A stretch of DNA of 64,000 nucleotides, from the NCBI GenBank assembly GCA_017506865.1, contig JAFCMP010000538.1, positions 372,001 to 436,000 of the forward strand, in the 5' to 3' direction. This document shows, piece after piece, positions 12,647 to 54,996 of the stretch (positions within the stretch are counted from its first letter, which is position 1; every line of letters begins with the position of its first letter). Source of the DNA: Tribonema minus. Lineage: Eukaryota; Sar; Xanthophyceae; Tribonematales; Tribonemataceae. Under the pieces are notes generated by a model, which worked only from the letters and a program-made list of their open reading frames with translations, was not told the origin of the DNA and made no database searches. Both the position numbers and the translations under genes were made by a program.

Positions 12647-15600
12647 ATGAGCGACGGCGCTCAAGCAGACGACGCTGCCTCCCATGATCCCTCCCACCAG
12701 GCTGAGCCTGCTGCATCTGGCACTTTAGATAGCTTCTTCAGGAGACTTGGGCACGGCCAGGCGAGCAGGATCTGGGGAGGGGGAGCGAGGGCCTCTCAGC
12801 AGCAATCCCAGCAGCACAGGCCCAAGGCTCAGCACCACCACGCTACACCCCCTTCCAGCCGAGCTGCGCGAACTCCTGACCGAGCCAGGCAGCATTCCGC
12901 CACGGAACCACCATCTCAGCAGCCGCAGCAGCAGCAACAGCAGCAGCACGCTGAGCTCAGCCCTCCCCGTTCACCCCCGCAGTCAAAGAGCGTGGCAGCG
13001 AGCGCGCCGTGGATGTCCCCCCCCCAGAGCAGGACGCCGCCTCCAGCGCCCCCCCCGTCGTCGGCGCGGCAGCAGACGCCCGGCAGCAGCAGCAGCAGCG
13101 CGCGCGGCGCGCCCCCGCCGCCGCACGCCGATGGCGCCGGCCTCCAGTCCCGGCCGAGCTTCAGAGACAGCAAGTACAGCGAGATCCTCGGTGCAGACGT
13201 GGTCTCTCTGCCCGATCTTCGCCGCCTGGCCTGGAACGGCGTGCCGCCCGCCTACCGGCCCACCGTCTGGAAGCTGCTGTGCGGCTACATGCCGGCGAAC
13301 CGTGACCGCCGCGCCGCGGCGCTCGCGCGCAAGCGCCGCGAGTACGCCGAGGCCGTCGCCGCGCACTTCGCCGCCGCCGCGGACGCCGCGCGCAGCGCTC
13401 AGGAGCAGGCGCTGCTGCGCCAGATCCTGGTGGACATCCCGCGCACCGCGCCGGACGCGCCGCTGTTCGCGGAGGTCGCCGCCGTGCAGCGCAGCATGAC
13501 GCGCGCGCTCTACGTCTGGGCGCAGCGCCACCCCGCGAGCGGCTACGTGCAGGGCATCAACGACCTGCTCACGCCGTTCTACGTGGTGTTTCTGGGGGAG
13601 CACGTCGTGGGGGGGGAGGGGGGGGGGGCGGGGGCGGCGGCGGCGGCGGCGGCGGCGGCGCTTCCGGAGGAGGCGCTCAAGGAGATTGAGGCTGACGCGT
13701 ATTGGTGTCTGACGAAGCTGTTGGACAATATACAGGTGGGTCGTTGCATCCGTGAATTTCTGTACCAGGTATGTTCTAGGTATGTACTAGTCAAGTGCAG
13801 GTGAATTAGTAGATGCATGGTGTTGCTGGCCCCAGTCTTACAGTCGATTGTAGGCTGTATGTAGCCGAGCCAGCTGCTGGCTGGTGCAGAGGACGGCAGC
13901 TCCTGTATGATGACGCACAAGCCGTGCGCGCGTTGCAGTAGTCATCATGCAGTGCAGTACAGTACGGCACAGTACAGTGCAATTCAGCACAGTACCGTGC
14001 AGTCCAGAGCACACAGATGTCTGGAGACACAGTCACGAGTACCCTGTGTTCTGTGCAGGCGATGAGTGCTGTGTTCAGTAGGCCAAGTGCCTGCCCAAAA
14101 CAAGTGGTGGCCTTTTCGATTGGGCACTCAGGTTGCGCAGTGAAGCCAGTGAAACATACACAGTCAGCAACACCGGTACTGAGCAGTTGATAGATCGAGC
14201 CGTTCCGATGTGAACTGCTGCCGGTTGTTGGGTCTGTTTTGTTCATGTTGAAGTTGAAGTAGGGAAACGGGTGAACATGTCCTCCGCGCTTACGACTGGA
14301 CTAACCGCTAGCGGAGGAACAAAGTCTCCTCATGTGCGGAGTGCAGTCAGAAGTTTCTTGTGAAGTTATGCACAGCCAGCGCCAGTGGCTGCCGCCACCA
14401 CGACATTGGCACTGCTGTATGACGTGCCTGCGTGACGCGACAGAGTTGACTTTCAGTAGACCACTGACCGTAGGTAGGTGTATAGCACCAGACCCGCACG
14501 GTAGCCTGTTGAAGTTATGTTAGGCTCTTCTTGGCAGCTCATGCAGTTCTACCAAAGCGAACGATGAGTTCGTATTACTCCACGTGGCTGGTATCAACAG
14601 CATCATGAGGTTACGGTCGCCATGTTATAGTTTTAAAAAGCGACAGCGCATGCAGGCAGCAGTGCTCAAAAGCACCGCTGCTGCTCAACCAGCTACAGCA
14701 GTGGTTGAACACCCAGCAAGGAGGGTCAGGTGCAACTGTATGTGGCTCAGACCCTCTGCACTGCTTTGTCGCGTGCAACATGAGGCACCTTGCGCAGCAC
14801 TCGGCCAGCTCCTGCAGCTGAAGTCATTCGACATGCTGTTGCTTTGGCTGATGCTGTGCCTGTGCTTTACAGCAGGCTGCCGCACATTGACCAGCACATT
14901 GACCATTTCACCCAGGCAGCTCTCAATGACTATGCTACCTCATGAAAAACGGTGCCGCAACTTCAAGTAGACCTGTTGAAGTAAGTGAACAGCACCCTCA
15001 CCCCCCGGCTCTCCCCCTCTGGTGCTGCATGCCAAGATCACTACAGCCAGCTTGCATGAGTTGAAGGTTTGCAAAGCCGCCGCAACTGCAACGCACGGTG
15101 CTGCGCTCGGCGGACCCGCACGCACATGCGCGAATCGTCCGCGCATGTTTTCTCTCCGGTTGTCGTCTCTAAATAGCCCTGCTGGTTCTCAATACGCTGT
15201 GAGGTGGGGTCAATACACATATACCCTCAAGCCAAATCCCTTCCATGCCACCGCCGGCGTAGCCGCCGGTGCCGCACTGCAAGATCTTCTAGACAGCAAT
15301 GCTGCAGCACATTGTAATGCTACCAATGTTACGCAGCCGGCCCGTATTCTCCCCTCCGCACTGCTGGGCCGCCGCCGCTGCCGTCACCGCTGCGGATCAA
15401 TACCCGGCCATGCAGCTGTGGCTGCAGTGCATGCTGCTGACATCGATGCTTACATACGCCACCCTCTGCGCCGCCGCCGCTGCCGCCGCTGTCGTCATCG
15501 CAGGATCACTACACAGCCATGCAGCTAGGGCTGCAGCGCATGCTGCTGCTGACACCCATGCTTATATACCCCACCCTCTGCGCTGCCGCAGCTGCTGCCG

Positions 15601-16361
15601 TCATCGCCACTACACAGCCATGCAGCTAGGGCTGCAGCGCATGCTGCTGCTGACACCCATGCTTACATACCGCACCCTCTGTGCTGCCGGCGCCGCTGTC
15701 GTCATCGCAGGATCACTACACGGCCATGCAGCCGGGGCTGCAGCGCATGCTGCTGCTGACACCCATGCTTATATACCCCACCCTCTGCGCTGCCGCAGCT
15801 GCTGCCGTCGTCGCCACTACACAGCCATGCAGCTAGGGCTGCAGCGCATGCTGCTGCTGACACCCATGCTTACATACCCCGCCCTCTGCGCTGCCGCCGC
15901 CGCCGCCGCCGCCATCGCCATTGCAGGATCACTACACGGCCATGCAGCCGGGGCTGCAGCGTATGGTGCTGCGCCTAGAGGAGCTCGTGCGGCGCATCGA
16001 CCTTGACCTGCACGCGCACCTTGCAGCGGAAGGCGTGCAGTTCATTCAGTTTGCGTTCCGCTGGATGAACTGCCTGCTTATGCGCGAGCTGCCGCTGCCG
16101 GCGATCGTGCGCGCGTGGGACACGTACCTCTCGGAGGAGGACGGGGGCTTCGAGTCGTTCCACGTGTATGTGTGCGCGGCGCTGCTGTGCAAGTTCTCGC
16201 CGGCGCTGCTGCGGCTCGATTTCGCGGCGCTCGTGCTGTTCTTGCAGGATATGCCGACGCGCGCGTGGTCGGAGGCGGACGTTGAGCCGCTGCTGAGCCA
16301 GGCGTATATACTGAGCACGCTGTTTGAGAACTCGAGCGCGCATCTGAATGTCACCAGCTGA
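12647..16361 (+). CDS. TBC1D22: TBC1D22-type Rab GTPase-activating protein, two exons, 507 aa
   Basis: Exon 1 is 12647-13735 and exon 2 is 15927-16361; both junctions are phase 0 (TACAG|GTGGGT, ATTGCAG|GATCAC). The first ~185 residues are low complexity (Gln/Pro/Ser/Ala). Then comes a full TBC domain: LRRLAWNGVPPAYRPTVWKL, LCGYMPANRDRRAA, the arginine-finger motif IxxDxxR (ILVDIPR, about residue 265) and the glutamine finger in GYVQGIND (about 300). Exon 2 carries LEELVRRID, FAFRWMNCLLMREL, VRAWDTYLSEEDG and FLQDMPTRAW, in the order of human TBC1D22A/B. Such proteins stimulate GTP hydrolysis by Rab GTPases in Golgi/endomembrane traffic. MSDGAQ at 12647 is chosen as start; an in-frame ATG at 12578 would add 23 residues. 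A poly-Ala run interrupts the domain where animal proteins have a variable insert. The 2.2-kb intron holds a six-copy exon-echo array. Confidence 0.93.
13940..14012. repeat. CAGTAC/CAGTRC microsatellite-like tract
   Basis: Repeated GCAGTACAGTACGGCACAGT-type words within the TBC1D22 intron. Imperfect 5-10 bp periodicity, no coding potential. Confidence 0.6.
15390..15990 (+). repeat. Exon-echo array: six tandem copies of the exon 2 start in the TBC1D22 intron
   Basis: The true exon 2 start (ATTGCAG|GATCACTACACGGCCATGCAG) at 15927 is preceded by five copies at about 15396, 15503, 15606, 15711 and 15814 (period 103-113 bp). Each copy has (GATC)ACTACACRGCCATGCAG, GGGCTGCAGCGCATGCTGCT and a CCCTCTGCGCTGCCGC tail. 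The copies at 15503 and 15711 keep an intact CGCAG|GATCAC acceptor. Downstream parts of each unit come from intron sequence, so the duplicated segment spans the intron-exon junction. Confidence 0.88.
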
Positions 16362-17840: not shown

Positions 17841-20800
17841 TTACATGGACGCGGCGTCGTCCTCGTCGGCATCGTCGTAGATGTCATCGCTGTCGCCCAT
17901 CATGATCTCAAGCACGTCCGGAGCGGGCGGGTTGTCCACGGGGTGCTGTATGCCCACGTAGTTGATGACCTTGCCCTCGGCGTTGCGCAGCGGGCTCACA
18001 AAGACAAAGTTCCAGAACGACTCTCCGCTGGCGTTGTAGTTGCGCAGGAACTGCAGCAGTGGGGGGGGGGGGGGTCAGAGTTTGAGTCAGAGTTGGGTGG
18101 GCTTGTGAAGTTCAGGTTACAGAAGACCTTTTAATGCTGGTGCTGAGTTGGGACGAACCAAAGTGATGCGCATGCAGCCGTGCCGTGAGTCAGACTCGAG
18201 AGTCGGATGAGGGTGCTGATTCATGAATGTGAACCTGGGGATGTGCAGTAAGCTGACACGACATGATGAGATGTTGTTTTCATTACTTTTTGCGTCGTTT
18301 GGAAACGTTGTGCAGATGATCTGTGCGGGGTGAGGTGCTGAGCGCTAGCATTGGCGCAAGTAAAGATGACGCTATGTCCATGCTGGCAATCGGCGCATCA
18401 TAGGATCGCTGACCGCAGCCTCAGTCTCATTCCACAGAAAACGTACGTGAACGATGCATTAACATGTTTTCATGAACACGCACATAATCATGAACATGCG
18501 TTTATGAACATGGAAGCGAGGCTTGCGCACGTCGTAGTATCACCGCCCCCCGCACCCTCAGTCTCACACGCCAGAGGGAGAATCATGAAGGATGGCCATG
18601 AGCAGCAGCATTACTGCACAAACTCCATCCCCCACACCAGAGTTGAAGGCAACAGAGTGGTGCAACTTGAACTCACACCACGCTCATGCCCTGCCAGCCA
18701 CTTCTCTGTGACGTGAGCCAATCGCAGTTGAAGTGTGCCGCCTCACCTCTGAGCGTTACTCATCGACGGCGACGTGCCACTGGCAACGACACAAGTGTCG
18801 CACAAACACCATGGTCCGAACACGGATCAAAGCCAGCACTGCGTGTTCCAACCGTATTTTTTCCAACCATTTCTCTAAAGGTGAGCCAATTGCGGCACTA
18901 GGTTGCACGCGTGCCAGCGGCGACGTGCCACTGGCAACGATACCAGTGTCGCACGAACGCCATGGCCCGAGCACGGAGCACGGCCAGCACCGCGTGTTGC
19001 AGCTCGTGTTTCTGCTGGCCATTTCTCTGGAAGAGAGCCACATTGAGGTCAAAGCTTGCACACGTGCCAGCGGCAACGGCACTAGAGTGCGCAAACGCCA
19101 TCACCCAACAGACGCGTAACACAAACATCACACTTACCACGCTGGTGTCCCTGCCGGCTTCGATGCCACGCCGTAGCTTGCCGACGGCGTCGGGGTCCGT
19201 GTCGGGGCCCTGCAGGAAGCGGCAGTTACGCCCCAGCACCTGCAGCAGCGCTCAGCAACAGTGCCAAAAGTGGATGTGGATCAGCGCGGGGGCTGGTGGT
19301 GGTGCGGCGGGGTTTGCGCGCACGACTGCAATGATGGTCAATTGAAGTGACAAATACAAATGGTATTGAGGACTTCAACTTGAAGTGTGTCGTCTGAACA
19401 CGCGCAGCAATAGCGTGCTCGTCATGAGCATGGAAAATTGAAACGAAGAGCAATGCACGGCGCTGAGGATTTGCATCAAGCTCTCCGAGCGTGACCAGAA
19501 TTCTGGTTGATCTGACCAACTTCAAGAATCCAAGTCCGTCTTCAATATCCTTCGCCACACAGGTGCGTCACAAGCAGCAGCGCTCAGAAACCACTGCCCT
19601 TGTGCTTAAGAACAGACACGCCTACATACTTGTGCGCGACTGACGCCCGCGAGCGCACTAATTCTGTCAATGGCTGTGAAATGACTGCTGCACGCAGGTG
19701 CATCGCAGGCAGCAGCGCTCAGAGATGGCCATACCTGCGCGCGGGTGTAGCCCGTGAGCGCGATGAAACCGCTGCTGGCATAGACAATCAGATGAGAGTC
19801 GAACAGGCGCACCACAGGCAGCAGCGCTCAGACAGGACCATGCGTGAGTGCGCATACATGCATACCTGCGTACGGCTGTAGCCCCTGAGCGCAATGACTC
19901 CGTCGCTGGCATAGACTATGAGATGAGTGTCGGACAGGCGCACCACAGGCAGCAGCGCTCAGACAGGGCCATGCGTGAGTGCGCATACATGCATACTTCA
20001 AAGTACCTGCGCGCGGGAGTAGCCCGTGAGCGCGATGAAGCCGTCGCTGGCGTAGACTATGGGGCAGTCCGCCAGGGTGGGATCCGTCACACAGAACGCC
20101 GGCTGGCTCGTCTGCAAGGCCTGCAGACGTACACATCGAACACAAAAAAAGGAGAAAGATGTGATGATGAACATGAATGAATTCAAAGTTGTACAAGTTG
20201 CCTGACTTTTGCAGCAAGAACAGTCGCTGCGGTCGCGATCTGATCAGACACCGAGATTTCTTGTTTGATGAGAGGTAGCGAGGTTGTGAAGTCGAATGCC
20301 GCTGACTCGTCTGCAGGGCCTGCAGACACACACACGCAGCAAAAAACAAATGACCTCAACTTGATGCTTTGGAAAATGCGGGGACACTTCAAGCCGCGAA
20401 AATTGTCTACTGTGGTGTAGGCAAGTGGCAGACAGTCGCTGCGGTCGCGATCTGATCAGACACCGAGATTTCTTGTTTGATGAGAGGTAGCGAGGTTGTG
20501 AAGTCAAATGCCGCTGACTCGTCTGCAGGGCCTGCAGACACACACACGCAGCAAAAAACAAATGACCTCAACTTGATGCTTTGGAAAATGCGGGGACACT
20601 TCGAGCCGCGAAAATTGTCTACTGTGGTGTAGGCAAGTGGCAGCGCTCCGCAGACGTACACGGCGAAAGTTAAATGATGTGCCAATTTCAGCTGTCAAAG
20701 TTGCGGAAATCGCCCGACTTACTTAGAGATGAGAACAATCGTTTCGCTCGCAATCTGATCACATGGCCAGATTTTCTACTTGCTGAGCGGTAGCTCATGT

Positions 20801-23800
20801 TGTAGCTAATGTTTTGAGCCGAATGTATGCGCAGGCAGGTGACAGCACCCTGCTGTATTTGCCACATGCAGCATTTCCCGCGCAGCAGCAGCTGCAGCGA
20901 CACCCTAACCGCATGTCGGCACTTGGGGGTTGGCGGCCAGCAGCAACGCTCACCCCTGAACCCAGTGCTCAGCAACATGTGCTGATGATGTAGCAGCGGC
21001 AGCGCTCTGCAGCCCTCCTGACGTCAGCATTTGCCTGCTCATCCTGCCCTCCCCAGACCGCAGATAGCACTTGGGGTCAGGATTGGCAGCAGTGCCGACC
21101 CCCTGCAACTCCAGTGCTGTACAACATGTGCTGCACACAGCGTTGACGCAGTAGCAATAGTCCTCTGCCATGGTCACTGGAGTCGTCATTTGCCTGCCTG
21201 AACCCCAGCCCTAACCCTGACCCTGCAAAGCAGCAGTGCTCGGCACGCTCCGCTGCCGCAGGTACAAACGCAATGAGACCTGACGATTGCGTACGCTCAG
21301 CTCACCTCATGAGCAACGCTGCAGCAGCGCCATCATCACCGTGCTGCAAGTGTCACCGCCGTGCAGAGCGCAGCAGTTGCCGTCGTAGTAGACTTCCTAC
21401 TTCACTTTCATTCCTTGATGAGCGTCTTTGTCACTGGCGACTGACCTTCATGAGCAGGAACCCTAACCCTAACCCGAAGCACAGACGCTCTGAGACCTGC
21501 CGACTGCGTACGCTCGGCTCGCCTTCATGAGCAACAAGTCGGTGCGCTGCAGCAGCGCCGCCAGGCAATACAAAGCAGCGCCGTGCAAAGCCGCAACAGC
21601 CGCCGTCATCGCACACCTCTGCTCTGATACAAATGCATTGAGGACCTGCGTCGCTGGGTATGTATGTATACAGGCGCAACGCACCTTCATGAGCAGGAAG
21701 TCGCTGCGCAGCAGCAGCGCTCATCACTGTGCTGCAAGTGGCACCATCTGCAGACCGCAGCAATCGCCGTCGTCATAGACTTTCTACTACAAATGAGTTC
21801 ATCTTTATCTATTTTTTATTGAGTCTAGTAGCTGGAGGGTCGCCATCACTCTGATAAGCGTCTTTGTCACTGCCCAGCTTAGGCTCAGCTCACCTTCATG
21901 AGCAAGAAGTCGCTGCGCTGCAGCAGCGCCGTCGCCTGCCGCGTGCAGCTGGCCACCACCGGCGACAGTCCGCCGCGGCAGCAGTCAGCCAGTATGCGCG
22001 GGCCCCGATCGCCACAGCGCTTTATCACTATCTCCTTCAGCCGCTCGTTCTCCATGTGGAGGCTGGAGACCTGGTGGTGCACAGTGCGCGGCAGGGGTCC
22101 GACTTCAGCTTTGAACTCACTACTTCATGAGTTGAAGCCAGAGTGGGACCGCCGCGTACGACGAGTGAGGATGCACGGACGGCTATAGCTGCAGCGCAGC
22201 GTGCATAGGGTCAGATACGCAACCACTACAGATAGCCGATAAGATGATGCAGTTATGGCGATGTCACGCGCAGCGCGCTTGATGACAACTGCCGTCAGCA
22301 GCTCGCTCTCCTTTTGCAGACTGGCCACCTGCGGCCCAGAGCGGGCGGCTCAGTAGAGCTGTTGTGCTGAGCACTGATGTACAGTAGTGATACGGTTGCT
22401 GAGCGCTGCGGTCTCGATGTCAGCGCGGTAACCGCCGATGACAAACGAGCGGTTTCGGCGCAATGTATCTACCGGTTTCGATCAGATCCAGTTTTGTGTA
22501 GGGGGCACAAAAACAGCTTTGTTCCGGAGGGACTGTGTGCCGAACACATGAAAGCAGTTGCAGTGGCGTCGGAGTTACCAGTATGTATCAATCACTTGCG
22601 GTTACTATGGGTAAGAGCACACCCGTTCGCCGCATTGCATCTTGAATCTTTCGGCAACTGCGTAGTGGAACTGCTACCTCAACTTCAACAACAGTGCACA
22701 ATTTCCGAATGACTTTCACGGGACCTCTGTAAATAGAGGTCCTGCCAATACACAACGGATCCATGCACAGGGCCGTGCCTGGCCTGCTTGTCGTAGTGGA
22801 TAAGTCGTTGTCAATAAGTCGAGGCTGCAGGTGCACGAGAGCTGCCATTGTCCCCCCTGCTAGGAATTAAAGTGGGGTTCGGTCTTCTGCGAGCGCCTGT
22901 CCTGCTACCTGAACTACTAGCATCACGCTGCATCCGCGATTGTAAGAATAAACAACAAAAGGGTCGCATGCCTGATGAGGCATGCAGCCGGATGGCATCT
23001 TCTCTATCGCCCTGTCATCTGGCGGCGCCTCTACTGCTATGTGAACAACCAGCATCACGCTGCACGCGTTCGTGAAGCAGAAAAAGTACTCAAGCCTCAG
23101 GCCTGATGGCATCTCCTCTACGATGCCCGAACGAATGATTGAACCTTGCACATGATGATGCAAACTGGTGCAGCCATGGGCCATGTGTTGGCGCAGGATT
23201 GGCGCGGATATGAAACGCAGGATGAGCTACAGACAAGCAAATAACACATTGGGTTTCCGTACCTGCGTCTGCAAACTCTGAAACATGAACTTTTTCCTGA
23301 GCCGCGTCCGTTTCGCCAGAACCCTGTTCCTCTCCCTCCTTTTCTGCTGCTGCTCCTCCTTATTGTGCGTGCGCTTTTTTGTGAGGGCAGTGCTGCTGGG
23401 TGGCAGAGCTTTCAGGGCCGCCGCCGCGGCGGCTGCGGCATACGGCGACGTGATCACCGTGCGTATGGGCTCGCCTTTCGGCTGCGGCAGTACTTTGCCA
23501 GTGGCAGCAGGCGGTGGTTGCTGAGCAGTTGATGACGGTGCCGGAGGCAACGCCTCTGCGAACGCGTCTTGCTCGTCGAAAGATGGCATGAGGAAAGGCG
23601 GATAGAAGTGCCCTTTGCCGCCGCTGAAAGGCTCGTCGAACACCATCTGGCTCATGGTGCTGAACTCAAACAGGTCGAACACATCGTCGCCCAGAGGCGT
23701 CAACTCGTCCTTGGCTGCAGGTGCACGCAGCGTACGAGCAAGCGTGAGTGTGGTCAAATCGCAGTTGAACACAAACAGGCGGCATGCAGCTGAACCTGCC

Positions 23801-28628: not shown

Positions 28629-31600
28629 TCACCGCTGCTTGTTCCTCGCGTACTCCACGAGATCGTCCAGCGAGATGGGCGACCACGCCCCCCCTGTCTC
28701 AACATACGCGACGCTCTGATCCATATACACCGACACGCCGCCGAACGCGTACACCTGGCGCCCCAGATGAAACCGCCCGGGCTTCGGCACAAAGGCAATT
28801 CCGCGCTCCATCGCGAGCGCCTCCACCACCTCGCGGAACGTGACGTCGCCGCCGCCGGCAGCAGCGCTGCGCCGCGCGGCGGCAGCGGCGGCGCTCGCCG
28901 CGGCCTCCATCTGCGTCTCCTCCGCCGCCGCCGCGCGCCGCGCCGCCGCCGCCGCGGCGCGCCTCTCGTCGAGCGCGCGCGCGTAGGAGGCGTCGGCTGC
29001 GCGCGGCGGCGGCGGCGGCGGCGCGCCGCGCAGCACGCAGTCCATTGCCGCGAGCGCAGCGGTGAACTGCGACTGCACGCGTGCGTCGGCGGCGATGGCG
29101 TCCGGGAAGAGCGACTTCCAGCCCTGGTACCAGCGCGCCACCTGTCGCGCGCGGCGCCGCACCGGCGGGGTGCATGGGGTTTTGGGTGTCAGGGGTGTGT
29201 AGTTTATGCGTATTCGTGAATTATACCGTATCATACCAGTGCACCATTGCGCGCCGCCGCGGTGGTTGACGGTGCAACGGGTATCAGGGGTGTGCTGGGG
29301 GGGGGGTACTTGTGAATCCCTGCAGCATGTTGCACACCATACATGCCAGCGCGCCGCCTGCGCAGCATTGCCGGACGACGTTGAGTCGCGTCGGGGGGGG
29401 GTATGTATGGCTTTGAGTGGGACCCCATGAATAAGTGGCACCAGCGACAGGAGTGCAAACAGGATGCCGCAGGCGTGGTGACGTTGGGCTGGTAGGCACA
29501 CTGAGCACATCCCCAAAGCACACTGATGAGCACTGCTGGCCTCATTTCGGCCACATCCGCCGCGGCGCCGCTGCTGACGAGCCAGCGTTGGGGTGAACCC
29601 CCACGAAGCAGCGGCGCAGGCCACAAGACGCATGCAAATGGCGTACTGCAGGCGCTTACCAGGGCGTTCAGCCAAATAAAGTCCGAAGGTCCGCAATATC
29701 GACTGCGACCACAACAACGGGATCGATATCCTGAGGTGCGTCACGACTCACGATGCTGCTCTCTGGAGTGCGCCCCCCGACTTGTGCCGCGCCATGGCTC
29801 TAGCAAAGTGGCCTGCAAGGCGCATATGGGGGAACGCTAGCACCCTGCTCTGCTGCTGGTGCTGCTGCTGGTTTGTCCGCGAGGCATGCATGCATGTAGA
29901 TATCATGCATCTCGCCTGCGCATTGGTGGCCTCACGTCACTACCTTTAAAGGTAAGTACACTGCTGAGCACTGCACGCCTCACCTCGCCCAGGTCCGCGG
30001 AGCCGCTGACGAGCCGATGGTACGGCGCCGTGTGCGTTTGCTTGAGGGCTGGGTTATAACTGCTGGCTCAATGATGTGAACCCGTTGACACTTGGGCTCA
30101 ATGATGTGAACCCGTTGACACTTGCTTCTGTGAACATGACACGCAACAATGCACGTGCAATACCTCAAAGTACTTGATACTTCAAAGTACTTAGTGACTC
30201 GCCTCGCCCAGATCGGCGAAGCCGGTGACGAGCCAGTGGTGCAGCGCCGTGCGCCTGCTTCAGGCGCGTCACTACCTGAAGTACTTACATTGCTGAGCAC
30301 TGCAATGTCTCACCTCGCCCAGATCGGCGGAGCCGCTGACGAGCCAGTGGTGCAGCGCCGTGCGCCACTTGGGGAACACCAACCCAGTGCACCTGCTGTA
30401 CACTGCCGGCCTCAAGGGGCGTCACTACTTGAAGTACAACTACTGAGCACTGCATGACTCACCTCTCCTAGATCAGCGGAGCCGCTGACGAGCCAGTGGT
30501 GCAGCGCCGTGCGCCACTTGGGGAAGACCTCGCCCTCCAGCAGCGCACACGTGTGCTGCAGCGGCAGCAGCGCGGCCCACTTGAGCACGCGCTGCAGCGG
30601 GGCGAGGTCCTGCTGAGCGGGGTTGACGGTGAAGTTGTCGCGCAGCTCGTGGGCCAGCGCGGGAGCGATGCTGCAGGTACACGCATTGGGGGGGGGGGGG
30701 GGGGGGGGGGTTGGGAGGTGAATGTTGGCAGAAACCACGCAAATGAGCATTTGAGAATGAGCTCGCAGCTCATTGCGACACGATTTGTTGTTGTCTGTTG
30801 AGGTAGTCTACTTAAGTGGGCAGCGAGATTTTTCAAATTAATATTTCTGATTGATAAAAGTATACTCCACAGGAAGTATAGCAGGGTAGGTACATGGCTG
30901 ACGGTGAAGTTTGTCGCGCAGCTCGTGGGCCAGCGCGGGAGCGATGCTGCGAGTACAAGCGTTTTTTTGAGGGGAGAGGGGGGGATGGGGGTTGAATATC
31001 AGTTTTAGAGACCGAGTGCAGAGCCCACTGCGACAGGAATGAACAAGTATATGTACTTCGAGGTACCTACTTTTTGTACTTATTATATATTCTTGTACTT
31101 CTTGCAAATTCTCGCTTGAGGCGCAAGACATCCTTGTATTGCGCTCCGCAGCAGTACTTTGACTTGAGCACTAGACATGCTAGATCTCCTTCAGAGGTAG
31201 CACAGTAGGGTTGAAGGTGACCTAGCTGCAAAGCTCAGTAAAACATACATACCTGGTGCCGAGCAGCGCCTCCAAGCTGCGCGCATCCATGACCCTGGCC
31301 CGATGCAATAACTACACACACTACATCATCTAGTAATACACACATACACTACGTAGTTTAGTAACACATACAACCTGGTGCCAAGCAGCACCTCCAGGCT
31401 GCACGTGTCGATGACCATGGCCCAATGCAATACATACGCTACATGGTCTAGCAAGATCTCGAACAGATCTCAAGCAAACTGCAACGTCAAGTGCACATTC
31501 TCAAGTGCAACGTGACTGCAAAACAGCGCTCATTTCACCAAGTAATACATACGTAATACGTACCTGGTGCCGAGCAGCGCCTCCAAGCTGCGCGCGTCCA

Positions 31601-34600
31601 TGACCCCAACCCGATGCAATACCTACATACACTACATAATCTAGTAATACAAACATTATATCCTACGTAGTCTAGTGATACATCCATACCTGGTGCCGAG
31701 CAGCGCCTCCAAACTTCGTGCATCCATAACCCCGGCCCAACGCAATACATACGCTACATCGTCTAGCAATACATACATACCTAGTACAAACAGGGCCTCC
31801 AAACTTCGTGCATCCATGACCCCGGCCCATGGCTGCAACGCGCTGAGTGCTGCGTTATTTTTGACATCGTATCTGCGTGCCCTTAACGAAAGGTTGCTAC
31901 AGTAGAAGCATGCAAAGACGTATGCTTTACACACCCAAAAATACTAATAGCGGGGCAAAAAAATGATACATGCATACCTGGTACCGAGCAGCGCCTCCAA
32001 ACTTCGTGCGTCCATGACCCCGGCCCATGGCTGCAATGCGCTGAGCGCTGCCTCATTTTCCACGTCGTCGTCAGGCCGCCAGCGCTTGAGCCCTGCCGCC
32101 AATTTCCGCCGAATCTGCGGAGGAGCACATGCGGAAAAGTCATGCTGCTGTGATGAGCAGTATGGATTGACGCAACAGATACACTGTGTCTGATGACTGC
32201 AGAGGCGTGCAGGGTTGGGACGATTTGGCGGGGAGCATCTACCCGCAGGAGGGGAAGGAAATGTTGAAGTGACTTGCCGTGTCTTGTAGGCATCAGGCGC
32301 ATACAACAGGCTATCAACACGCCAGACCCCACTGGCCGAGAGGGGGGGAGGAGGGCAGCACTGTTTCCTGGGGGGGGTGACAAGCCTCATGTTGCTGCTG
32401 TGTGTGGGGGGTGACAAGCCCTTGTGGGCTGCTCCCCGGAGAGGGGGGGACAAGCTGTTGTGTGCTGCTGCCTGACGGGTAAGTCGCAAGACTGACAAGG
32501 CGCAGGGCAGAGTCCTCATGGATGCATCCAGTTGCATGGCTGGAGCGGGCATGTTAAAGTCTGTTACCTTACGCGCAGAGTCGTACTGCTTCAAGGTCAT
32601 GCAAGGAATGGCTGAAAGATGATTGCCAAATTTGGAAGTTGCATATGAAGTTGTGGCAACACAGACCGCAACCAAAAGGTGACAGTTTGCGAACCCCTCT
32701 TGACTATTGCCATCAGTGCCGAACAGATCTGGAGCGGCACTTGCAAGTGCACGCAATGGCTCTGTGACTGTCACAGGTACATAAACTCCTCACAGTTCAG
32801 TAGTCATTGTCACCCAAATCATGCACTTGACGCCTCTCTGCTCGCGTATGCGCAAACAGCTCTGCTGAGCGTTGCCCTCCGGTACCTGCGCCTGTGACAA
32901 CACCCACGGCCCCACACACATCACACGTACCGTCTTTTCTACTTCAACCATCCATGTCTCAATGCACACTAGACGTCAAGTTCAGCACCCCAACTCGCCA
33001 CAGATTAGCGCAGAGCACCAACTATTGTTCGCGCACCTCTGGGAACAGCTCTGCCCGGCGATGACCCAGCAGTTTTGCCCACAACACACGCCGTCAGTTC
33101 TACTTAACTATCCACCTCTCAACGCACACTATCGTCAAGTTCAACACCCCAGCTTGCCAGGGGCTGCACACAAATCTGTCATGACTCTTGCGCGCTCACC
33201 TCTGGAAACAGCTCTGCCAAGCGATGCCCCAGCAGTTTCGCCCACGGTAACACCCACGCATGAAGCCCCAGTCCCTGGTCTCTGTAGCTCCACTGTGCGA
33301 GCCCCAGTCTCAGCTTGGGCAGTATGGACTGCTCTGCGAGGAGCGAGAGCGCGCCGCTTGGCAGCACCGGGGCGAGCGCGGAGACGAGCGCTGCTGCCGT
33401 TTGAGCGTTGTCGTGCACCTGCGCAATTAGGGTTAGGGTTGGAGGATGTGAGAAAACAAACAGATTTGGAATTTTGAGTACTGGTGACGTTTTGAAGCGG
33501 CCAGGGCGAGCGCGGAGACCAGCGCTGCCGCCGCCTGAGCGTTGTGTGTGCCTGCGCAAGTAGGGTTAGGGTTGGAGAGAGTGAGGAAAGGCGCCATATA
33601 AACTTTTGAGCAAAGGCTCATTCAGGATTATAACGGATCGTGTCAGAGTTGTTAGCGTGTTGAGTAGGGGTGAGATTTTGAAGTGGCAGGGGCACGCGCA
33701 GAGCTGCCGCCTGAGCGTTGTCATGCACCTTCGGCAGTTAAGATTAGGGTTGGAGAGTGTGAGGAATGGGTCAGAGCTGGGATGGTCACAGGTAGCTTTT
33801 TGTGAAGGGGTATGGTTTTGAAGTGGCCAGGCGAGCGAAGAGACGATCGCTGCTGCCACCTGAGCGTTGTTGTGCGCCTGCGCAATTGCGGTTAGGATAG
33901 GAAGTTGCAGCTGTGGTCAGCAACTGGGTAAACAAATTGAGTCAGGGTCGGCAACGACTGGGGCGCAGGCTAACCCTAACCCTGACCCTAGCCCTAACCT
34001 TCTAACCCTTGCATTTGCATCCCAGCGTGTGGCTTCGGGAGAGCACAAGTAAGGAGACGACGCATCAGCACAGCTCAACAGCGGCCATGATCTCTCAGTT
34101 GGATATTGAAGTCCAGCCTCAGGCTTCCCCTTCCAACTGTTGGCAAGCGCCTGGCACATGGTCGCCACAACAACTGCCTTGTCTTGCTATCTGTGACCTT
34201 AAGGTCTGCCGCACCAGCTGCCGACAAGCGCCCGCCAGACGGGCCAACTCCAACATTGAACTTCAAATAGAAGTTGAGTGCCCGCAGGCCTCACCTTCCA
34301 ACTGTTGGCGAGCGCCTGAAGCATACGCCCCATGACGACTGCCTAGACCAGCTGCGCACAAGCCGATACGATGTTGCAGCTCACATCAATGTTCAGCGCA
34401 TCGAAATTTGGTGCGGCACCCCTTACCTTCCGGCCATTGGCGAGTAACAGGTGAACGGGCCCCATGACGATTACCTCCACTAGCTACCAGTTGCACATAA
34501 GCGGATACAATATTGAAGTTCACAATTGAGTGTTCAGTGCCTTGAGGTTTAGTGCGACAGCCCTTACCTTCCAACTGTTGGCGAGCGCCTGGCGCACAGG

Positions 34601-37600
34601 TCCCATGACGACTGCCTCCACCAACTGTGCGTAAGCTGCGTCGCCGGCGCCGCGCAGCTGCGCTGCACCGGCAAGCTCCAGCTGCAGTGCCGCGCGCAGC
34701 AGCAGACAACAGCAAGTGCAGTGGACTGTCAGCTTACCGAGCTTCACCACGCAGAATCGACCACGCAGAAAATTAGAATACAAACACTGAATAAAAACAC
34801 TGTGCTCTGGCACCTGAAGCCTTCACGTATCTCTGCGCTGCTGTCCTGCAATCAGAAATGGGCAGGGCTCACTTGTCGGTCGACCTTACCCTAAGTCTAA
34901 CCCGAATCCTAACCCCGACCCTAACTCTAAGTTGTGCAATGTACTGGCTAGGTGCACAGTTGAGCCCTGTGACTGCCATGCATGTGATGCTCTGCAGTGC
35001 CGCTGAGCATGCGCTCACCGTCATTTGCCTCTGCAAGCGCCGCCAGTTTGATGTGCAAAGTGGCGTTGATCTTGATGCACCCAACACACGGACCAGCACT
35101 CGATGGTGTACATACAAACACCATCCTCCCCCTTGCGCCCCCCACACCAAGACGTCAATGGACACGCATAGCGCTATGCGCATATATGTGCACCTACGAC
35201 GCTGCCGACGCCAATGCACTCATCAGCCATGGGTCGCCTACAGTGCAACAGGCGGTCCCCACACAGGCGCCGCTGTCTACAAGCTGGTGCGCCCCAACCC
35301 TACCCTAACCCTAACCCTACCCCTAACCCTAACTGGAGACAATCGCATCGACACACAACAGTCACCCCCACTCTCTCGCAGGGCACTGACTCACCTGAAC
35401 CCCCCCCTCCCCCTCCCCCCCCCCCCCCCCCCCCCCCAGCGCCGCCCGCCACTGCATGAGCAGCGCACCCGCCATCCCGGGGTCCTCCATGGGCCGCCAG
35501 CCCCTGAGCGCTGCTGCGATGACGGGCGCCGCGAGCGCCGGCGCGGCGTGCGCGACGCCGAACACGGCGTACTCCTCGGGGAAGGCGCCGCGCATGGTGG
35601 CGAAGGCGCGCGCGAGGGCGGAGGGGGTGACCGCCTCCGGGGCGTCTTTGACGCGCGACGCGACGCGGTCGAGCATCGCTGACAGCTGCAGTGCTCAGCG
35701 ACGGGGAAGCGACGGGGAGAGGAAGTGATGTCAGTGCTCAGCCGCCAACGGCTGCAGTGCTCGGCAATGGAAGAGAGTTGATGTCAGCGCTCAGACAGCG
35801 ATTGCAGCTGAGGCGCGCGCGAGGGCGGACGGCGTGACTGCCTCCGGGGTTTTGCGCACGCGCGACGCGACGAGGTCCAGCATCGCCGACAGCTGCAGTG
35901 CTCAGCAATGAGAGAGTTCATGTCAGAGTGCCATCGGGTGCAACTGAGCATCGCTGACAGATGTGGCGTCAGCAACGGGAGACGGCTGATGTCAGTGCTC
36001 AAACAGCGACTGCAGGTGAGGCGGCGCGCGCGGGGGGCGGCGGGGGTGACTGCCTCCGGGGTTTCGCGCACGCGCGACGCGACGCGGTTGAGCTTCGCCG
36101 ACAGCTGCAGCGTGCAGCAACCAGAGACAGTTTGATGTCGGTGCTCAGCCGTCAAAGGCTGCAGTGCTCAGCAATGGGGCGAGAGATCTGAGATGTCAGT
36201 GCTCAGCCAGCGAAGGCGCGCGCGAGTGCGGACGGCGTGACCGCCTCTGGGGTTTCTGGACGCGCGACGAGACGCGGTCGAGCATCGCCGACAGCTGCAG
36301 CGCTCAGCGACGGGAAGGGAGTTGCGATGTCAGCGCTCAAACAGCGGTTGCGGTTCGAGCAGCGCGGTCGAGCCGCGGATAGCTGCAGCGCTTGGCGACG
36401 AGAGACGTCGATGTCGGTGCTCAAACAGCGGTTGTGGTTGCGGTCGAGCATCGCTAACAGCTGCGGCGCTCAGCAATGAGAGAGAGTCAAAATGTACACA
36501 GCGTCGGCATCAGTTTTGAGGTCATGGCAGGGTAAGAGTAGAGCCAGGGGTATTCCTAAGCCTGAGCATCGCTGACAGCTGCAACCTCAGCGACGAGAAA
36601 GAGTTGATGTCAGTGCTCAGCCAGCGGTCCCGGTCGAGCAGCGCTGACAGCTGCAGCGCTCAGGAAACAGTAACGCGTGTGAACAGATAGGAATCAGAGC
36701 TAGGAATAAGTAATGTTAGAGTACGGCAAGAAAGGGTTTGGGTTCCTGACCGTAAGCATCGCCAAAAGCTGCTGCGCCCAGTGCCGAGAGATGCATCAAG
36801 TCACTGCAATATTGAGCATACCTGCTCAACTCTGGCCAGCCGCGCTTGGGCAGCGTCCACGCACGCGCGCGCACACGCCCTGCGCCTCCCTCTCCAGCTC
36901 CTGATGCCTCCACTATGACTACGTTACTATGTGCTGTACGCACACATTCCCGAGCTACATACTTCAATATACACACGTAATCGTTTCACGCATTGTTCAT
37001 ACCTGCTCTACCCTAGCCAGACGCGCCTGCGCCGCCTTCACGCGTGTGCGCACGCCTCCGCCTCCCTCTTCAGCACAATGCCGTGAATCATCATGTCAGT
37101 CTTATACGCTTTCTTTTTCGTGTGTTGCACCATGCTCTCACATACTTGATCAACTAGGTAAGTGCACTGCAACATCTAACATACCTGCTCTATCCTGGCC
37201 AGCCGCGCCTCCGCAGCCTCCACGCGAGCGCGCACCCCCCGCGCCTCCCTCTCCAGCGCCGACGCGCGCGTCGCCTCCATGACCACGTTACCGTGTGCAG
37301 TACACACATACTCTTCGGCTACATACTTCAATAATCATACTTGAAAGTACGTACTTCTGAAGTGTATAGTTTCACACATTGTTCATACCTGCTCTATCCT
37401 GGCAAGCCGCGCCTGCGCAGCCTCCACGCGCGCATGCACGCCCCCCGCCTCCCTCTCCAGCGCCGCCGCGCGCGCCTCCTCCGCCGCCGCGCGCCGCCGC
37501 CCCCCAATCACGTCCGCCTCCGCCAGCGACACTATCATGTGCACGTTGTGCAGCAGCTCCTGGCCGAGCTTGGGCGCCTCCGCCGCCGCGCGCGCCGCGC

Positions 37601-40237
37601 CGCTGATCTCGTCAGCACCGCTCAGCAGCTTGACGGTGGGGCCGCGCATGTCCACGATGACTTGCTGCGGCGGCGCTGCTGCTGCTGAGCCGTGCTGCGC
37701 TGCGGTGTCATCGCGCTCCGCCGCCGCCAGCAGCTCTTCCGCCGTCACGTAGCGGCGCTTGCTGCGCTTCGCAGCGGCGCCCTGGCGCAAAGAAATGCAT
37801 GCAACGGGTAGGGGGTTAGGGTTTGGAGTTAGCTTCAATTTGTCTGGAAATTTTCAACACAGGTTGAAAATGTATTATTGGCTCGAAAAGAGCAGTGCTT
37901 AGCATCAGTTAGTGAACCCAGCAGGGCTCGGGTGAGGGGGGTGGTTGAAGTGATGATGATCAGCGGCAGCGCTCAGCATGAACATGGATCAGCGAAGGTG
38001 ATGCGGCAAATAACGTTCACCCCCAACCGAGGTTGCCTCTCACGAATCCCTGTGACCAGTGATGGCCACCAGTTGTGCTCGTACGCTCTGTGTCGTCGTT
38101 TTGTGCCCACACGGCGTTTCCGTCAAAGCATGGTGACTGACTTAGCTGCAGCAACGTGATCGGGTTTTTGCCGGCGTCCTGCTCGCAACGGCCTCGTCCA
38201 GAGGTCGTATCCGCGCACCAGACCACAAGCAGCAATCAAGACCATGCTTCAGCGCAGCTGGTACAGGCAGCAACTCGGTGAAAGATGGTGTGCCTCTTCT
38301 AGCAGCACATCTGATGCCAACTCTTCTTGCAGGGCACTTGCCCAAGGGCTGCCATTGACAAGTGCGGCAATGGCGCGCTGGCAGCAGCAGCGCTCCCTGT
38401 GTTTGCGCTCATGTGCCCTCTATGCTGCGCCCTGAGGTTGAAGTTGGGATGATGCGTATGCGCCTACCACCACGCTTCTCATTTGACCCATTCCATCCCT
38501 CACGGCTACGATCCCTGACTAACCCTCTGCTTGAACCCACAGCAGTTCTGTGCGCTTCTTTGCGATAGAAATAACAGCCACGGACAGCAGCTCTGCGCAG
38601 TCGCCCCGGCGCGTCGCCTTGAAATCAGCACACAAAGTCTGAACAACTTCATCTTCAACAGTTACACACAAAGTTGCATGCGTCATCGCCGTGGCGCGTC
38701 ACCTCGAATCCAGCACACGAAGCCTGAAAATAACATTAACTTCAAAATCTTGACACAAACGATGAAGATACACATGCATGCTGTTGGAGCGTATGGCACT
38801 CACACGCTCATTGCCGTCGGCACACTTGACTGTTTTTAACAGTTACACTTGCCGGGTACACAGACCACGACACATTCACTTCTAGCAGCACGCGACTGAA
38901 GTCAGTCTTCTGTTGCATTGGTCACCCTGATGTCTACATCTTCCGACGTGGAGCAACAGGCTACATAGAGAGCAGCAGCGCTCAACATTGCATGCATGCA
39001 TACCTTGCGCCACAGCCCCGACGCGGCCGCCGCGTCCGCCGACTCCCTGCGCGCATTGGTCACCTTGATGTCTGCCTCTATTGTTGTCGTGCAACAGGCT
39101 ACAAGTGAGCAGCAGCGCTCTACATTGCATGATATACACATGCATACATACCTTGCGCCACAGCCCCGCCGCAGCTGCCGCGTCCGCCGCCTCCCTGCGC
39201 GCCTCCCCCGGCTTCACAACAGCCTCCGTCCGCTCAATCCCCAGCTCCTTCTCAAGCTCCTCCAGCGTCTTCCCCTGGCGGTCCGCTTCAATCTCGCGGT
39301 TCACGCGGAGCGTCGTCGCCTCCTTGAAGTTGCCGAACCCCAGGCCGATGCCGCCGGGGCGCACCTTAACTTCAAGTTGGCGCGTGACGCCCGTCTCGTG
39401 CTTGCCCAGGCGCCCCGTGAACCCCATCTTCTGCATGAGCTTCAGGCCGATGCCTTTGGTGTGCTTCTCCCAGCCGCCGAATCCCGCATCGAGCTTCGCA
39501 GGCTTCTTAGGCGGCGGCGGCGCTGCTGCTGCCGCCGCTGCCGCTGCGCCGCCGTCGCCGGCCTCCTGGCTCGCGATTGAAGCCGTTTCTGAAGCTGCAG
39601 CGGCGGCTGGCGCGTCACCTGCTGTAGTTGAAGCTGCGGCCTGCAGCCCCTTCATCAAGAAGGCTCTGAAATCTGCATTCGTCGTGGGCAGTTTCGCGAT
39701 GGTCGCGGGCTTGAAGTCCGGCTCCTGCTCCTGAGGCTCCGCGGCGACCTCACGCGGCGCAGCCGGCGCGGAGGGCGCGGTTGCCCTCTGCAGCAGCGCT
39801 CTGAAAGCTTGCTGTGTCCGCTGCTCGCCGGCACCACCATCGGACTCATCGCTAGACTCGGGCTCCTCCTGCTTCACGCCAGCTCCGGCAGCGACTGCGG
39901 GTTTGATCTCTGGCTCCGCCTCCTGTGTGCCGTGCTCCACGCGTGTGCCCCCGACAAAGTTGACAGGCTTGGTGAGATCAGCTCTGCCTCTGCCGCCTCC
40001 CCCCTTGCCCTTCCTGTCCCGCTTCCTCTGCCTGAACATGGCATCCTCGTCGTCCTCGTCCTCTGCAAAGACGCCGTAGACGGACTCTTCTCGGGTCTGG
40101 CGCCGGCCTCGTTTCTGACCCCTGGCATAGAACTCTCCTCCGATCCATTGACCATCTTCGTAGTCATTGTCGGCGGTGAACGCCATGCGATGTTCATCGT
40201 CCGAGGCTCCGCCCCCACCATCCTCGCTGGAGCTCAT
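28629..40237 (-). CDS. TFIP11: TFIP11/Ntr1-type G-patch spliceosome disassembly factor, eight exons, 986 aa
   Basis: Exons (minus): 40237-39152, 37781-37389, 35685-35395, 34681-34568, 33418-33200, 32114-31978, 30670-30463, 29141-28629. All are GT-AG and in phase (2961 nt). The acidic N-terminus contains ADNDYEDGQWIGGEFYARG, the TIP_N signature. A G-patch follows (KGIGLKLMQKMGFTGRLGKH, about residues 258-305). Exon 2 has RYVTAEELLAAAE and a coiled coil. Exons 3-7 form the GCFC helical domain (LPKLRLGLAQW, LHAWVLPWAKLLGHRL, RRKLAAGLKRWRPDDD, LEGEVFPKWRTALHHWL). Exon 8 has VARWYQGWKSLFPD and the terminal FVPKPGRFHLGRQVYAFGGV. The protein activates DHX15/Prp43 to release intron lariats in the nucleus. 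It is about 150 residues longer than the human protein, mostly Ala/Gly inserts. Six of the seven introns carry exon-echo arrays. Confidence 0.95.
29975..30470 (-). repeat. Exon-echo array: TFIP11 exon 7 end, three copies plus the real one
   Basis: Plus-strand CACCTCGCCCAGATCGGCGG and AGCCGCTGACGAGCCAGTGG recur at about 29981, 30201 and 30311 before the real junction at 30463. Each copy keeps a potential donor (GAG|GTGAG-type in two). GAGCACTGCA lies 5-8 bases beyond the donor in three cases. Another eroded copy may lie at 29555-29620. Other repeats at 30060-30125 (ATGATGTGAACCCGTTGACA twice) and 30165-30195 (CTTCAAAGTACTT twice) are unrelated. Confidence 0.88.
30690..30712. repeat. Poly(G) run in TFIP11 intron 6
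   Basis: About 22 consecutive G on the plus strand close to the acceptor of exon 7 (minus strand poly-C, a long polypyrimidine tract). About 30890-30960 holds a copy of the exon 7 start (GTCGCGCAGCTCGTGGGCCA and GCGGGAGCGATGCTGC) followed by a second G-rich tract. Confidence 0.7.
31245..32114 (-). repeat. Exon-echo array: TFIP11 exon 6 end, five copies plus the real one
   Basis: The block CTGGTGCCGAGCAGCGCCTC + CAARCT + CATGACCCCGGCCC recurs at about 31250, 31372, 31557, 31684 and 31776 before the real exon end at 31978. Four copies keep the ACCAG|GTATG or similar donor. The copy nearest the exon is longest and reaches further into exon sequence (NAALSALQPWAGVMDARSLE in minus translation). 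TACATACRTACCTGG spacer words also repeat. Period is 90-185 bp. Confidence 0.9.
32320..32475. repeat. G-rich minisatellite in TFIP11 intron 5
   Basis: GGGGGGTGACAAGCC and GGGGGGGACAAGCTGTTGTG-type units alternate with TGCTGCTGTGTG for about 150 bp. Possible G-quadruplex-forming sequence; no coding signal. Confidence 0.6.
32855..33200 (-). repeat. Exon-echo array: TFIP11 exon 5 end, two eroded copies plus the real one
   Basis: Plus-strand CACCTCTGGRAACAGCTCTG + CC at the real junction (33200) is copied at about 33033-33095 (CACCTCTGGGAACAGCTCTG, ATGACCCAGCAGTTTTGCCC) and, more eroded, at about 32853-32925 (AAACAGCTCTGCTGAGCG, ACAACACCCACGGCCCC). Period about 165 bp. Confidence 0.75.
33420..33905 (-). 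repeat. Exon-echo array: TFIP11 exon 5 start with a telomere-like branch-site region
   Basis: The true acceptor reads CTAACCCTAATTGCGCAG|GTG at 33418. Copies at about 33500-33580, 33680-33760 and 33820-33905 repeat CCTGAGCGTTGT...CTGCGCAA followed by telomere-like GTTAGGGTTGGAG on the plus strand. The telomeric unit was thus duplicated with the junction. Each copy keeps recognisable exon-start sequence (GCGCGGAGAC, GCTGCCGCC). Confidence 0.85.
33970..34010. repeat. Degenerate telomere-like tract in TFIP11 intron 4
   Basis: CTAACCCTAACCCTGACCCT followed by AGCCCTAACC, in the middle of the intron between two echo arrays. Confidence 0.7.
34120..34568 (-). repeat. Exon-echo array: TFIP11 exon 4 end, three copies plus the real one
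   Basis: The real junction reads TTACCTTCCAACTGTTGGCG on the plus strand (34565 up) with CATGACGACTGCCTCCAC further in. Copies occur at about 34126-34185, 34286-34350 and 34424-34485, each with CCTTCCRRCTGTTGGCRAGC, a CATGACGA-type word and CTGCCT/TTACCT. Period about 140-150 bp. Confidence 0.87.
35294..35333. repeat. Interstitial telomere-like tract in TFIP11 intron 3
   Basis: CCCTACCCTAACCCTAACCC-type units on the plus strand, about 60 bp from the exon 3 donor. Confidence 0.8.
35415..35437 (-). repeat. 23-base C run inside coding exon 3 of TFIP11
   Basis: On the minus strand this is poly(G), coding a Gly run (RAALGGGGG..EGEGG) just before the donor CAG|GTGAGT. In my model its length keeps the exon in frame. 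A one-base slip would frameshift the protein. Confidence 0.7.
35690..36790 (-). repeat. Exon-echo array: TFIP11 exon 3 start, about nine copies
   Basis: The true acceptor is GCTGAGCACTGCAG|CTGTCAGCGATGCTC at 35685. Long copies at about 35803-35905, 36010-36120 and 36206-36310 include exon sequence GACGGCGTGACYGCCTCYGG and GCGCGACGCGACG with GTCGAGCATCGCCGACAGCT. Short copies (CATCGCTGACAGCTGC..CTCAGC) lie near 35945, 36375, 36445, 36565, 36630 and 36750. Most keep the CTGCAG acceptor. This is the longest echo train in the window and fills most of intron 2 next to exon 3. Confidence 0.9.
36815..37400 (-). repeat. Exon-echo array: TFIP11 exon 2 end, three copies plus the real one
   Basis: CATACCTGCTCTATCCTGGC + CAGCCGCGCC + GCAGCCTCCACGCG on the plus strand marks the real junction (37389) and copies at about 36820-36905, 37007-37075 and 37188-37280 (period about 185-195 bp). 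Each copy keeps a GAGCAG|GTATG-type donor on the minus strand. ACATACTTCAATA also repeats between copies. Confidence 0.9.
38900..39152 (-). repeat. Exon-echo array: TFIP11 exon 1 end
   Basis: The real exon end codes ADAAAAAGLWRK and is followed by GTATGTATGCATG. A copy at 38998-39060 codes SADAAAASGLWRK and has the same CGCAAG|GTATGCATG donor. The spacer GCATTGGTCACCYTGATGTC...GCAACAGGCTACA...GAGCAGCAGCGCTC repeats with it (period about 155 bp), with a further partial copy at 38915-38995. Confidence 0.88.
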
Positions 40238-54911: not shown

Positions 54912-54961
54912 GTGCAGGGGAGTATTCGCGGTTGGCAGCCGCGCATTCGAGACCGAGCCTG

Positions 54962-54996
<35 letters not shown>

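Follow-up and report, generated by a model that had tools for sequence, protein, structure and literature searches.

Lengthening of introns is usually attributed to transposons and random indels. Duplications within genes, some of them with introns, were reportedly surveyed by Gao and Lynch in 2009, and these are said to concern gene segments and whole introns; judging from the description given in a citing source, the structures reported here share the within-gene location and are set apart as arrays of junction fragments lying inside introns. A duplication that crosses an intron–exon boundary is described in the available part of PMC4974935, where a single tandem duplication in the potato RdRp gene took an intron end with its acceptor together with the first part of the exon that follows; of the two copies one remained coding, and the outcome was a new intron, in one case and one gene. 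Intron gain via tandem duplication of an AGGT-containing exon segment, possible without a change of the protein, is presented in the available text of PMC3443670. Introners, according to the accessible passages of PMC7789003 and PMC9860276, are dispersed families with direct repeats at their boundaries; the main text of PMC9860276 makes no mention of Tribonema.

We analysed a stretch of 64,000 nucleotides from Tribonema minus (referred to as the window; contig C535 of a 158-Mb genome in 554 contigs), in which introns of a TFIP11-like gene hold copies of an exon edge plus its splice site inside the adjoining intron. We term such copies echoes. As in potato RdRp, the tandem duplication crosses the intron–exon boundary; unlike the event covered by the available part of PMC4974935, the Tribonema copies appear to be spliced out and to decay, with no new intron, and are found at 34/108 junctions outside two of the sampled contigs, C10 and C529. 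The resemblance to AGGT-mediated intron gain lies in a tandem duplication interacting with splice sites, and the difference, as far as the available text of PMC3443670 describes an exonic source and a new intron, lies in a unit that mixes exon and intron and extends an existing intron. With introners, as characterized in those passages of PMC7789003 and PMC9860276, the echoes share a repeat-driven change of intron content, but two arrays free of foreign sequence occur at a single locus each and come from the exon next to them. Within the portions of these sources that were available, a single junction-crossing duplication and intron gain by tandem duplication are already known, and recurrent arrays of junction copies that lengthen introns appear to be new; no description of such arrays as a general mode of intron growth was found in the open-licence literature, among the matches listed.

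Splice-junction echoes in TFIP11 and other genes of the window

The rebuilt TFIP11-like gene (Table 1) encodes a protein with the Pfam domains TIP_N, G-patch, and GCFC. A T. minus protein at NCBI (P0001, 543 aa) is an exact substring of the rebuilt sequence, residues 444–986, and the published model is therefore concordant with ours at the protein level over introns 2–7; relatives P0002 and P0003 align through the intron 1 join, in an alignment read by eye. The NCBI protein is without exon 1 and part of exon 2, and the window encodes 443 extra N-terminal residues, with TIP_N and the G-patch.

Table 1. Coordinates in the window of the TFIP11-like gene, its exons, and the echo arrays of this and two further genes
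Feature	Coordinates	Strand	Description
TFIP11-like gene	28629..40237	minus	8 exons, 7 GT-AG introns, 986 aa in one frame
TFIP11 exon E1	39152-40237	minus	rebuilt gene model
TFIP11 exon E2	37389-37781	minus	rebuilt gene model
TFIP11 exon E3	35395-35685	minus	rebuilt gene model
TFIP11 exon E4	34568-34681	minus	rebuilt gene model
TFIP11 exon E5	33200-33418	minus	rebuilt gene model
TFIP11 exon E6	31978-32114	minus	rebuilt gene model
TFIP11 exon E7	30463-30670	minus	rebuilt gene model
TFIP11 exon E8	28629-29141	minus	rebuilt gene model
TFIP11 intron 1 donor array	38915..39202	minus	one echo with a period of 148 and 51 nt of exon
TFIP11 intron 2 donor array	36798..37482	minus	three echoes, exon parts 94/73/76 nt
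TFIP11 intron 2 acceptor array	35600..36666	minus	6-7 echoes; two breakpoint classes, with 81-86 nt or 15-21 nt from exon 3
TFIP11 intron 4 donor array	34270..34636	minus	BLAST extent; three echoes, the farthest lower, with its junction near 34130
TFIP11 intron 4 acceptor array	33367..33902	minus	three echoes, exon parts 52/26/48 nt
TFIP11 intron 5 donor array	32917..33245	minus	one clear echo
TFIP11 intron 6 donor array	31237..32068	minus	four or five echoes, depending on the threshold; split by an 86-nt dispersed repeat (31455-31540)
TFIP11 intron 6 acceptor array	30621..30994	minus	one echo
TFIP11 intron 7 donor array	29935..30529	minus	three echoes, exon parts 67/53/52 nt
TBC-domain gene, intron 13736-15926, acceptor array	15352..15972	plus	five echoes, spacing 101-115, exon part 45-46 nt
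Aureochrome-like gene (bZIP + PAS), intron 20121-21893, donor array	21264..21931	minus	
Aureochrome-like gene (bZIP + PAS), intron 19240-20006, donor array	19730..20061	minus	

Each TFIP11 junction, taken as 60 nt of exon plus 20 nt of intron, was scored against each of the seven introns. Own-intron echoes were found at 9 of the 14 junctions, spread over six of the seven introns. Six donors scored 79–134 (103, 95, 24, 90, 79, 108, and 134 for introns 1–7), and three acceptors, those of introns 2, 4, and 6, scored 96–115 (20, 115, 24, 96, 14, 103, and 25 for introns 1–7). Every score of a junction against an intron other than its own was 30 or less. Neither an echo nor a tandem repeat was found in intron 3 (34682..35394, minus strand), which served as an internal control; in intron 2 the recognisable array makes up 83% of the length. 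Among the TFIP11 copies with at least 15 exon nt, 27 in number, the splice dinucleotide is spanned in 25, and GT or AG is kept in 24.

The first-pass annotation had placed echoes in six of the seven TFIP11 introns, and this is borne out, as is its extension to TBC1D22 and aureochrome introns: arrays are present in a gene for which Pfam gives a TBC domain (the name TBC1D22-like is taken over from that annotation as an assumption) and in a bZIP/PAS gene, the PAS domain of which we presume to be a LOV domain. Its statement that the unit always spans the junction went too far, the splice dinucleotide being spanned in 25/27 copies in TFIP11 and in 80/91 echo copies of the whole sample described below. 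Two to nine copies had been claimed; multiple copies do occur at some junctions, the range being 1–7 echoes per echo-bearing TFIP11 junction. Of the progressive divergence it described, a trend remains, the nearest copy being closer in sequence than the farthest at 16/23 junctions (Wilcoxon p=0.065).

Several other features of these genes were observed. A 212-bp tandem duplication at 20220–20643, inside an intron of the aureochrome-like gene, has 99% identity between copies and represents background duplication of very recent date. At 35400–35440, TFIP11 exon 3 ends, just before the donor, in a long run of G (gene sense) that codes for a poly-glycine stretch, which is also present in the published protein. 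Telomere-like CCCTAA runs lie in noncoding sequence at 33430–33450 and 35292–35333, one of them just upstream of a 3' splice site (gene sense), where the CTAAC within the run could presumably act as a branch site; the frequency of CCCTAA differs among contigs.

Frequency, structure, and decay of echoes in a wider sample

The sample comprised 259 kb of the 158-Mb genome, namely the window, 170 kb from seven further contigs, and eight 3-kb G-patch loci. Outside TFIP11, exon borders were mostly predicted ab initio with a small exon–intron HMM, self-trained on the 259 kb and seeded on TFIP11. The first versions over-called exons and took echoes for exons; a penalised version (-5, 3) together with the curated TFIP11 model was used. 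The HMM recovers 7–8 of the 8 TFIP11 exons, a figure that is not independent, the model being seeded on this gene, and a gene model on C10 is 99% identical to its NCBI protein. Joins are supported by alignment to solved structures in the genes for a DEAH helicase (DHX35-like), a dimethyladenosine transferase, and PFK-2, and further joins outside TFIP11 span a Pfam domain. HMM errors include one missed exon in the dimethyladenosine transferase gene and borders several codons off in the PFK-2 gene.

At a score of at least 45, echoes were present at 18/103 donors and 20/103 acceptors, affecting 30/103 introns, compared with 0/1,020 per side in control draws from the introns of other genes. The outcome named in the first-pass annotation as fatal to its claim, echoes no commoner than in random intron–exon pairs, is thus contradicted in this sample. 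A stricter gene-model setting gave 25/78 introns with echoes (control rate 0.0013 for donors and 0 for acceptors), and a third setting gave 30/111 (control 0). Without C529, a TPR-like repeat gene, a match in the own intron was found at 36/188 junctions, in reverse complement at 1/188, and in other introns of the same gene at 0/904. C529 was also left out of the spacing, polarisation, family, masking, breakpoint, projection, intron-part homology, and start/stop counts, and C10 out of the junction-bias counts; these filters make counts differ slightly (34/108 vs 35/110 junctions).

The share of bases lying in local direct repeats is 14.7% for introns, 4.7% for intergenic DNA, and 9.8% for exons; for inverted repeats it is 0.1–0.2%. 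The echo copies lie head to tail and differ by about 10–20% plus indels. Non-tandem insertion of exon fragments was suggested by an ungapped projection, in which homology stopped just past the splice site, and was ruled out by a gap-tolerant test, in which the intron part was homologous to the intron of the real junction for the nearest echo in 27/32 arrays and for some echo in 29/32. TFIP11 intron 6 is an exception, the real donor's own intron start not being homologous to the introns of its echoes.

Successive junction copies are spaced 72–337 nt apart (median 150, 78 spacings). The exon part of the nearest echo measures 16–94 nt (median 53, 34 junctions) and never reaches 100 nt; under a uniform null constrained by the lengths of exon and unit, nine junctions with at least 100 nt are expected, and none of 20,000 runs was so low. 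Several junctions have more than one exon breakpoint, such as the two classes at the intron 2 acceptor (Table 1) and those of 91 and 50–60 nt at the intron 6 donor, which suggests repeated duplication at one and the same junction. Inspection by eye showed no breakpoint motif. In introns with both kinds of echo, those of the donor lie ahead of those of the acceptor in 8/8, an order in which, under exon definition, they cannot pair into a new exon; donor and acceptor echoes within one intron showed no significant association (p=0.21). The copies hold a single exon edge and in this do not correspond to tandem (mutually exclusive) alternative exons.

Raw differences between exons and echoes fall on codon positions 1/2/3 as 112/88/250, which suggested coding constraint on the echoes. 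Changes were then polarised at junctions with at least two echoes (28/40), which placed the third-position excess on the exon side: exon-side changes numbered 7/2/24 over the three positions (p=4e-6) and echo-side changes 70/53/81, not quite even (p=0.04). Of the echo indels, 8/57 are multiples of three and 49/57 are not. The near-even echo changes and out-of-frame indels make coding use of echoes unlikely, and the exon-derived part decays nearly without coding constraint, like debris and unlike alternative exons. The first-pass question of whether echoes are debris, decoys, or alternative exons is by this largely settled as regards coding function. Splice dinucleotides in aligned copies are kept in 34/37 cases for GT and 38/43 for AG (28.4 and 32.1 expected from overall identity); exon-anchored projection without alignment gives 25/35 and 20/28. 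The projected GT/AG identity is 0.80/0.80, compared with 0.86/0.80 for adjacent exon bases and 0.59/0.58 for adjacent intron bases, and a weak constraint on the echo dinucleotides is possible from these comparisons. It is nevertheless improbable that echoes are functional, kept by selection as decoy or reserve splice sites or as regulated alternative exons: such a role would fit the GT and AG kept beyond expectation, their identity above that of adjacent intron bases, and the raw pile-up at third positions, but their identity is not above that of adjacent exon bases, alignment ends favour matches, and the polarised excess is exon-side.

Junction bias and the origin of the arrays

Duplications cross splice junctions recurrently, their copies decay in a near-neutral manner, junctions are enriched for them, and the exon part has a ceiling. 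The arrays are probably best read as the outcome of tandem duplications that recur across splice junctions, are tolerated because the outermost site goes on being used in splicing, and in this way lengthen introns. The unit would straddle the junction, taking in some 50 nt from the exon edge and some 100 nt from the intron, with the splice site in between, so that duplication on the donor side would give exon edge–GT followed by exon edge–GT, and on the acceptor side AG–exon edge followed by AG–exon edge. The outermost site, being joined to the full exon, would be spliced, leaving the extra copy intronic, the protein the same, and the intron one unit longer. The extra copy would then decay, while the exon-bordering copy would stay under purifying selection, and further rounds at that junction, starting from new breakpoints or amplifying an existing unit, would give rise to arrays. 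The published protein and homology point to use of the outer site in RNA, as only this site is attached to the full exon. The ceiling of about 95 nt may reflect selection, since an echo with a longer exon part would be taken for an exon or outcompete the proper splice site. The enrichment may reflect a mutational bias at splice junctions; it requires either such a bias, speculatively one coupled to splicing or transcription, or some form of selection.

If this is correct, many introns here would seem to owe their growth to copies of their own splice junctions, each keeping a decaying record of the process, and the genome would offer natural replicates of duplicated-splice-site experiments, with many junctions at which splicing has to pick the outer one among several similar sites. 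A mutational origin of the junction bias would tie DNA duplication to splicing or transcription. That splice junctions of expressed genes are, in this lineage, hotspots of DNA duplication, splicing- or transcription-coupled, alike at donors and acceptors, a main engine of intron growth, and regionally on or off, is a tentative proposal that we regard as possible and doubtful.

Outside C10 and C529 (61 introns, 78 kb), tandem-repeat families numbered 33 junction-spanning, 11 intron-only, 16 intergenic, and 3 exon-only. The main rival reading of these counts, which we consider rather unlikely, is a plain edge effect, in which duplications arise at a uniform rate, exon-internal ones are purged, and those at junctions are the survivors nearest exons. 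Background duplications do exist, as the intergenic and intron-interior families attest, and if introns were formerly far shorter, most units would necessarily have crossed a junction. Such a background would, however, yield only about 1.7 junction families with an 80-nt zone per junction, or 2.9 with a 135-nt zone (the 80-nt zone being our own choice and the background length of 155.5 kb hand-counted), against 33 seen, a roughly 10–20-fold excess that is still improbable under a threefold detection bias. Conserved exon parts ease the detection of junction copies, and exons were masked to offset this help; even so, 14/42 families touched an intron end, compared with 1.3 expected and a maximum of 8 in 20,000 simulations; in the other direction, 28/42 lay away from intron ends (other thresholds gave 6/29 to 16/49 touching, only the 42 being simulated). 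Echoes at start and stop codons, found in only 3/49 cases compared with 34/108 junctions (p=0.0004), also argue against an edge effect; interior exon windows gave 0/118. Among families of at least 85% identity, 14 were junction-spanning, 4 partial, 4 intron-only, and 6 intergenic, again at odds with this rival, whereas at 90% or more few families are left and the excess is thin (5 junction, 1 partial, 3 intron-only, 3 intergenic), as it would allow. Around 55 introns outside C10, repeat coverage is 0.22–0.30 in a zone that begins 60 nt within the exon and reaches about 240 nt into the intron at donors and about 320 nt at acceptors; farther into introns it is 0.14–0.18. In exons it drops to 0.03–0.11 at depths of at least 100 nt for donors and 120 nt for acceptors, with the exception of the donor side beyond 260 nt (0.14–0.20, 20–23 exons per bin). 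In the identity-checked genes, 18/22 intron-associated families span a junction and 4 are intron-only (hand count).

In the Rogers model, an intron is born when an exon segment containing AGGT is duplicated in tandem, and the echoes would be relics of intron origin. This process invokes the same type of mutation and, according to the available parts of PMC3443670 and PMC4974935, has been reported in other eukaryotes. It is very improbable here: the model predicts the next exon's start at the intron 5' end and the upstream exon's end at the 3' end, and at a score of at least 35 neither was found in any of the 53 introns of at least 300 nt (0/53), of which 27 have echoes; the duplicated units, moreover, include intron sequence. 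Insertion of introner-like or other transposable elements into introns could be read from the 86-nt dispersed repeat within the intron 6 array, but the echo sequence is the local exon's own, and the intron 2 acceptor and intron 7 donor arrays, among three arrays searched, had no match elsewhere in the 158 Mb, which makes this origin exceedingly improbable. The third, that of intron 6, matches elsewhere solely through the 86-nt piece. The many near-identical dispersed copies that characterize introners were not found for the three arrays searched, and the first-pass distinction between echoes and introners holds on this evidence. We attach minimal probability to an assembly or gene-modelling artefact. 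Most exon borders in the sample are indeed ab initio predictions, but divergence of about 10–20% with indels between copies is unlike that of assembly duplicates, the TFIP11 joins match the published protein, joins elsewhere are consistent with homologs or run through a Pfam domain, and the C10 gene model agrees almost completely with its NCBI protein.

Uneven distribution and intron length

The proposal in the first-pass annotation that introns grow by tandem duplication across splice sites stands insofar as the duplication is real, occurs on several contigs, and goes with longer introns, and has to be qualified in that it is uneven within the genome. Outside C10, the median intron length is 1,307 nt with echoes vs 792 nt without, and 12/22 gene models carry echoes (hand count). 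Echo-bearing introns amount to 0/5 in the G-patch loci, 6/7 in TFIP11, and 12/17 in the C100 stretch; TFIP11 and C100 thus account for 18 of the 28 outside C10. On C10, echoes were found in 1/39 introns of at least 150 nt vs 28/56 elsewhere (p=2e-7). Tandem duplications are very scarce in this 50-kb gene-bearing stretch (L009–L013, C10:100001-150000), and its introns are shorter, with a mean of 703 nt. Contamination as the source of the C10 sequence was ruled out, a riboflavin kinase model on it being 99% identical to a T. minus protein, with a 56% relative and then Ectocarpus as the next matches.

Two further repeat-related features were noted. The 86-nt repeat at 31455–31540 has at least 39 further copies, several of them paired in the same orientation at distances of about 4.4 kb and thus resembling the terminal repeats of a 4.4-kb element, of which the window copy in the intron 6 array would be a lone end. 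At 54912–63878, the window holds a single open frame of 2,988 aa, which by eye resembles a retroelement with reverse transcriptase.
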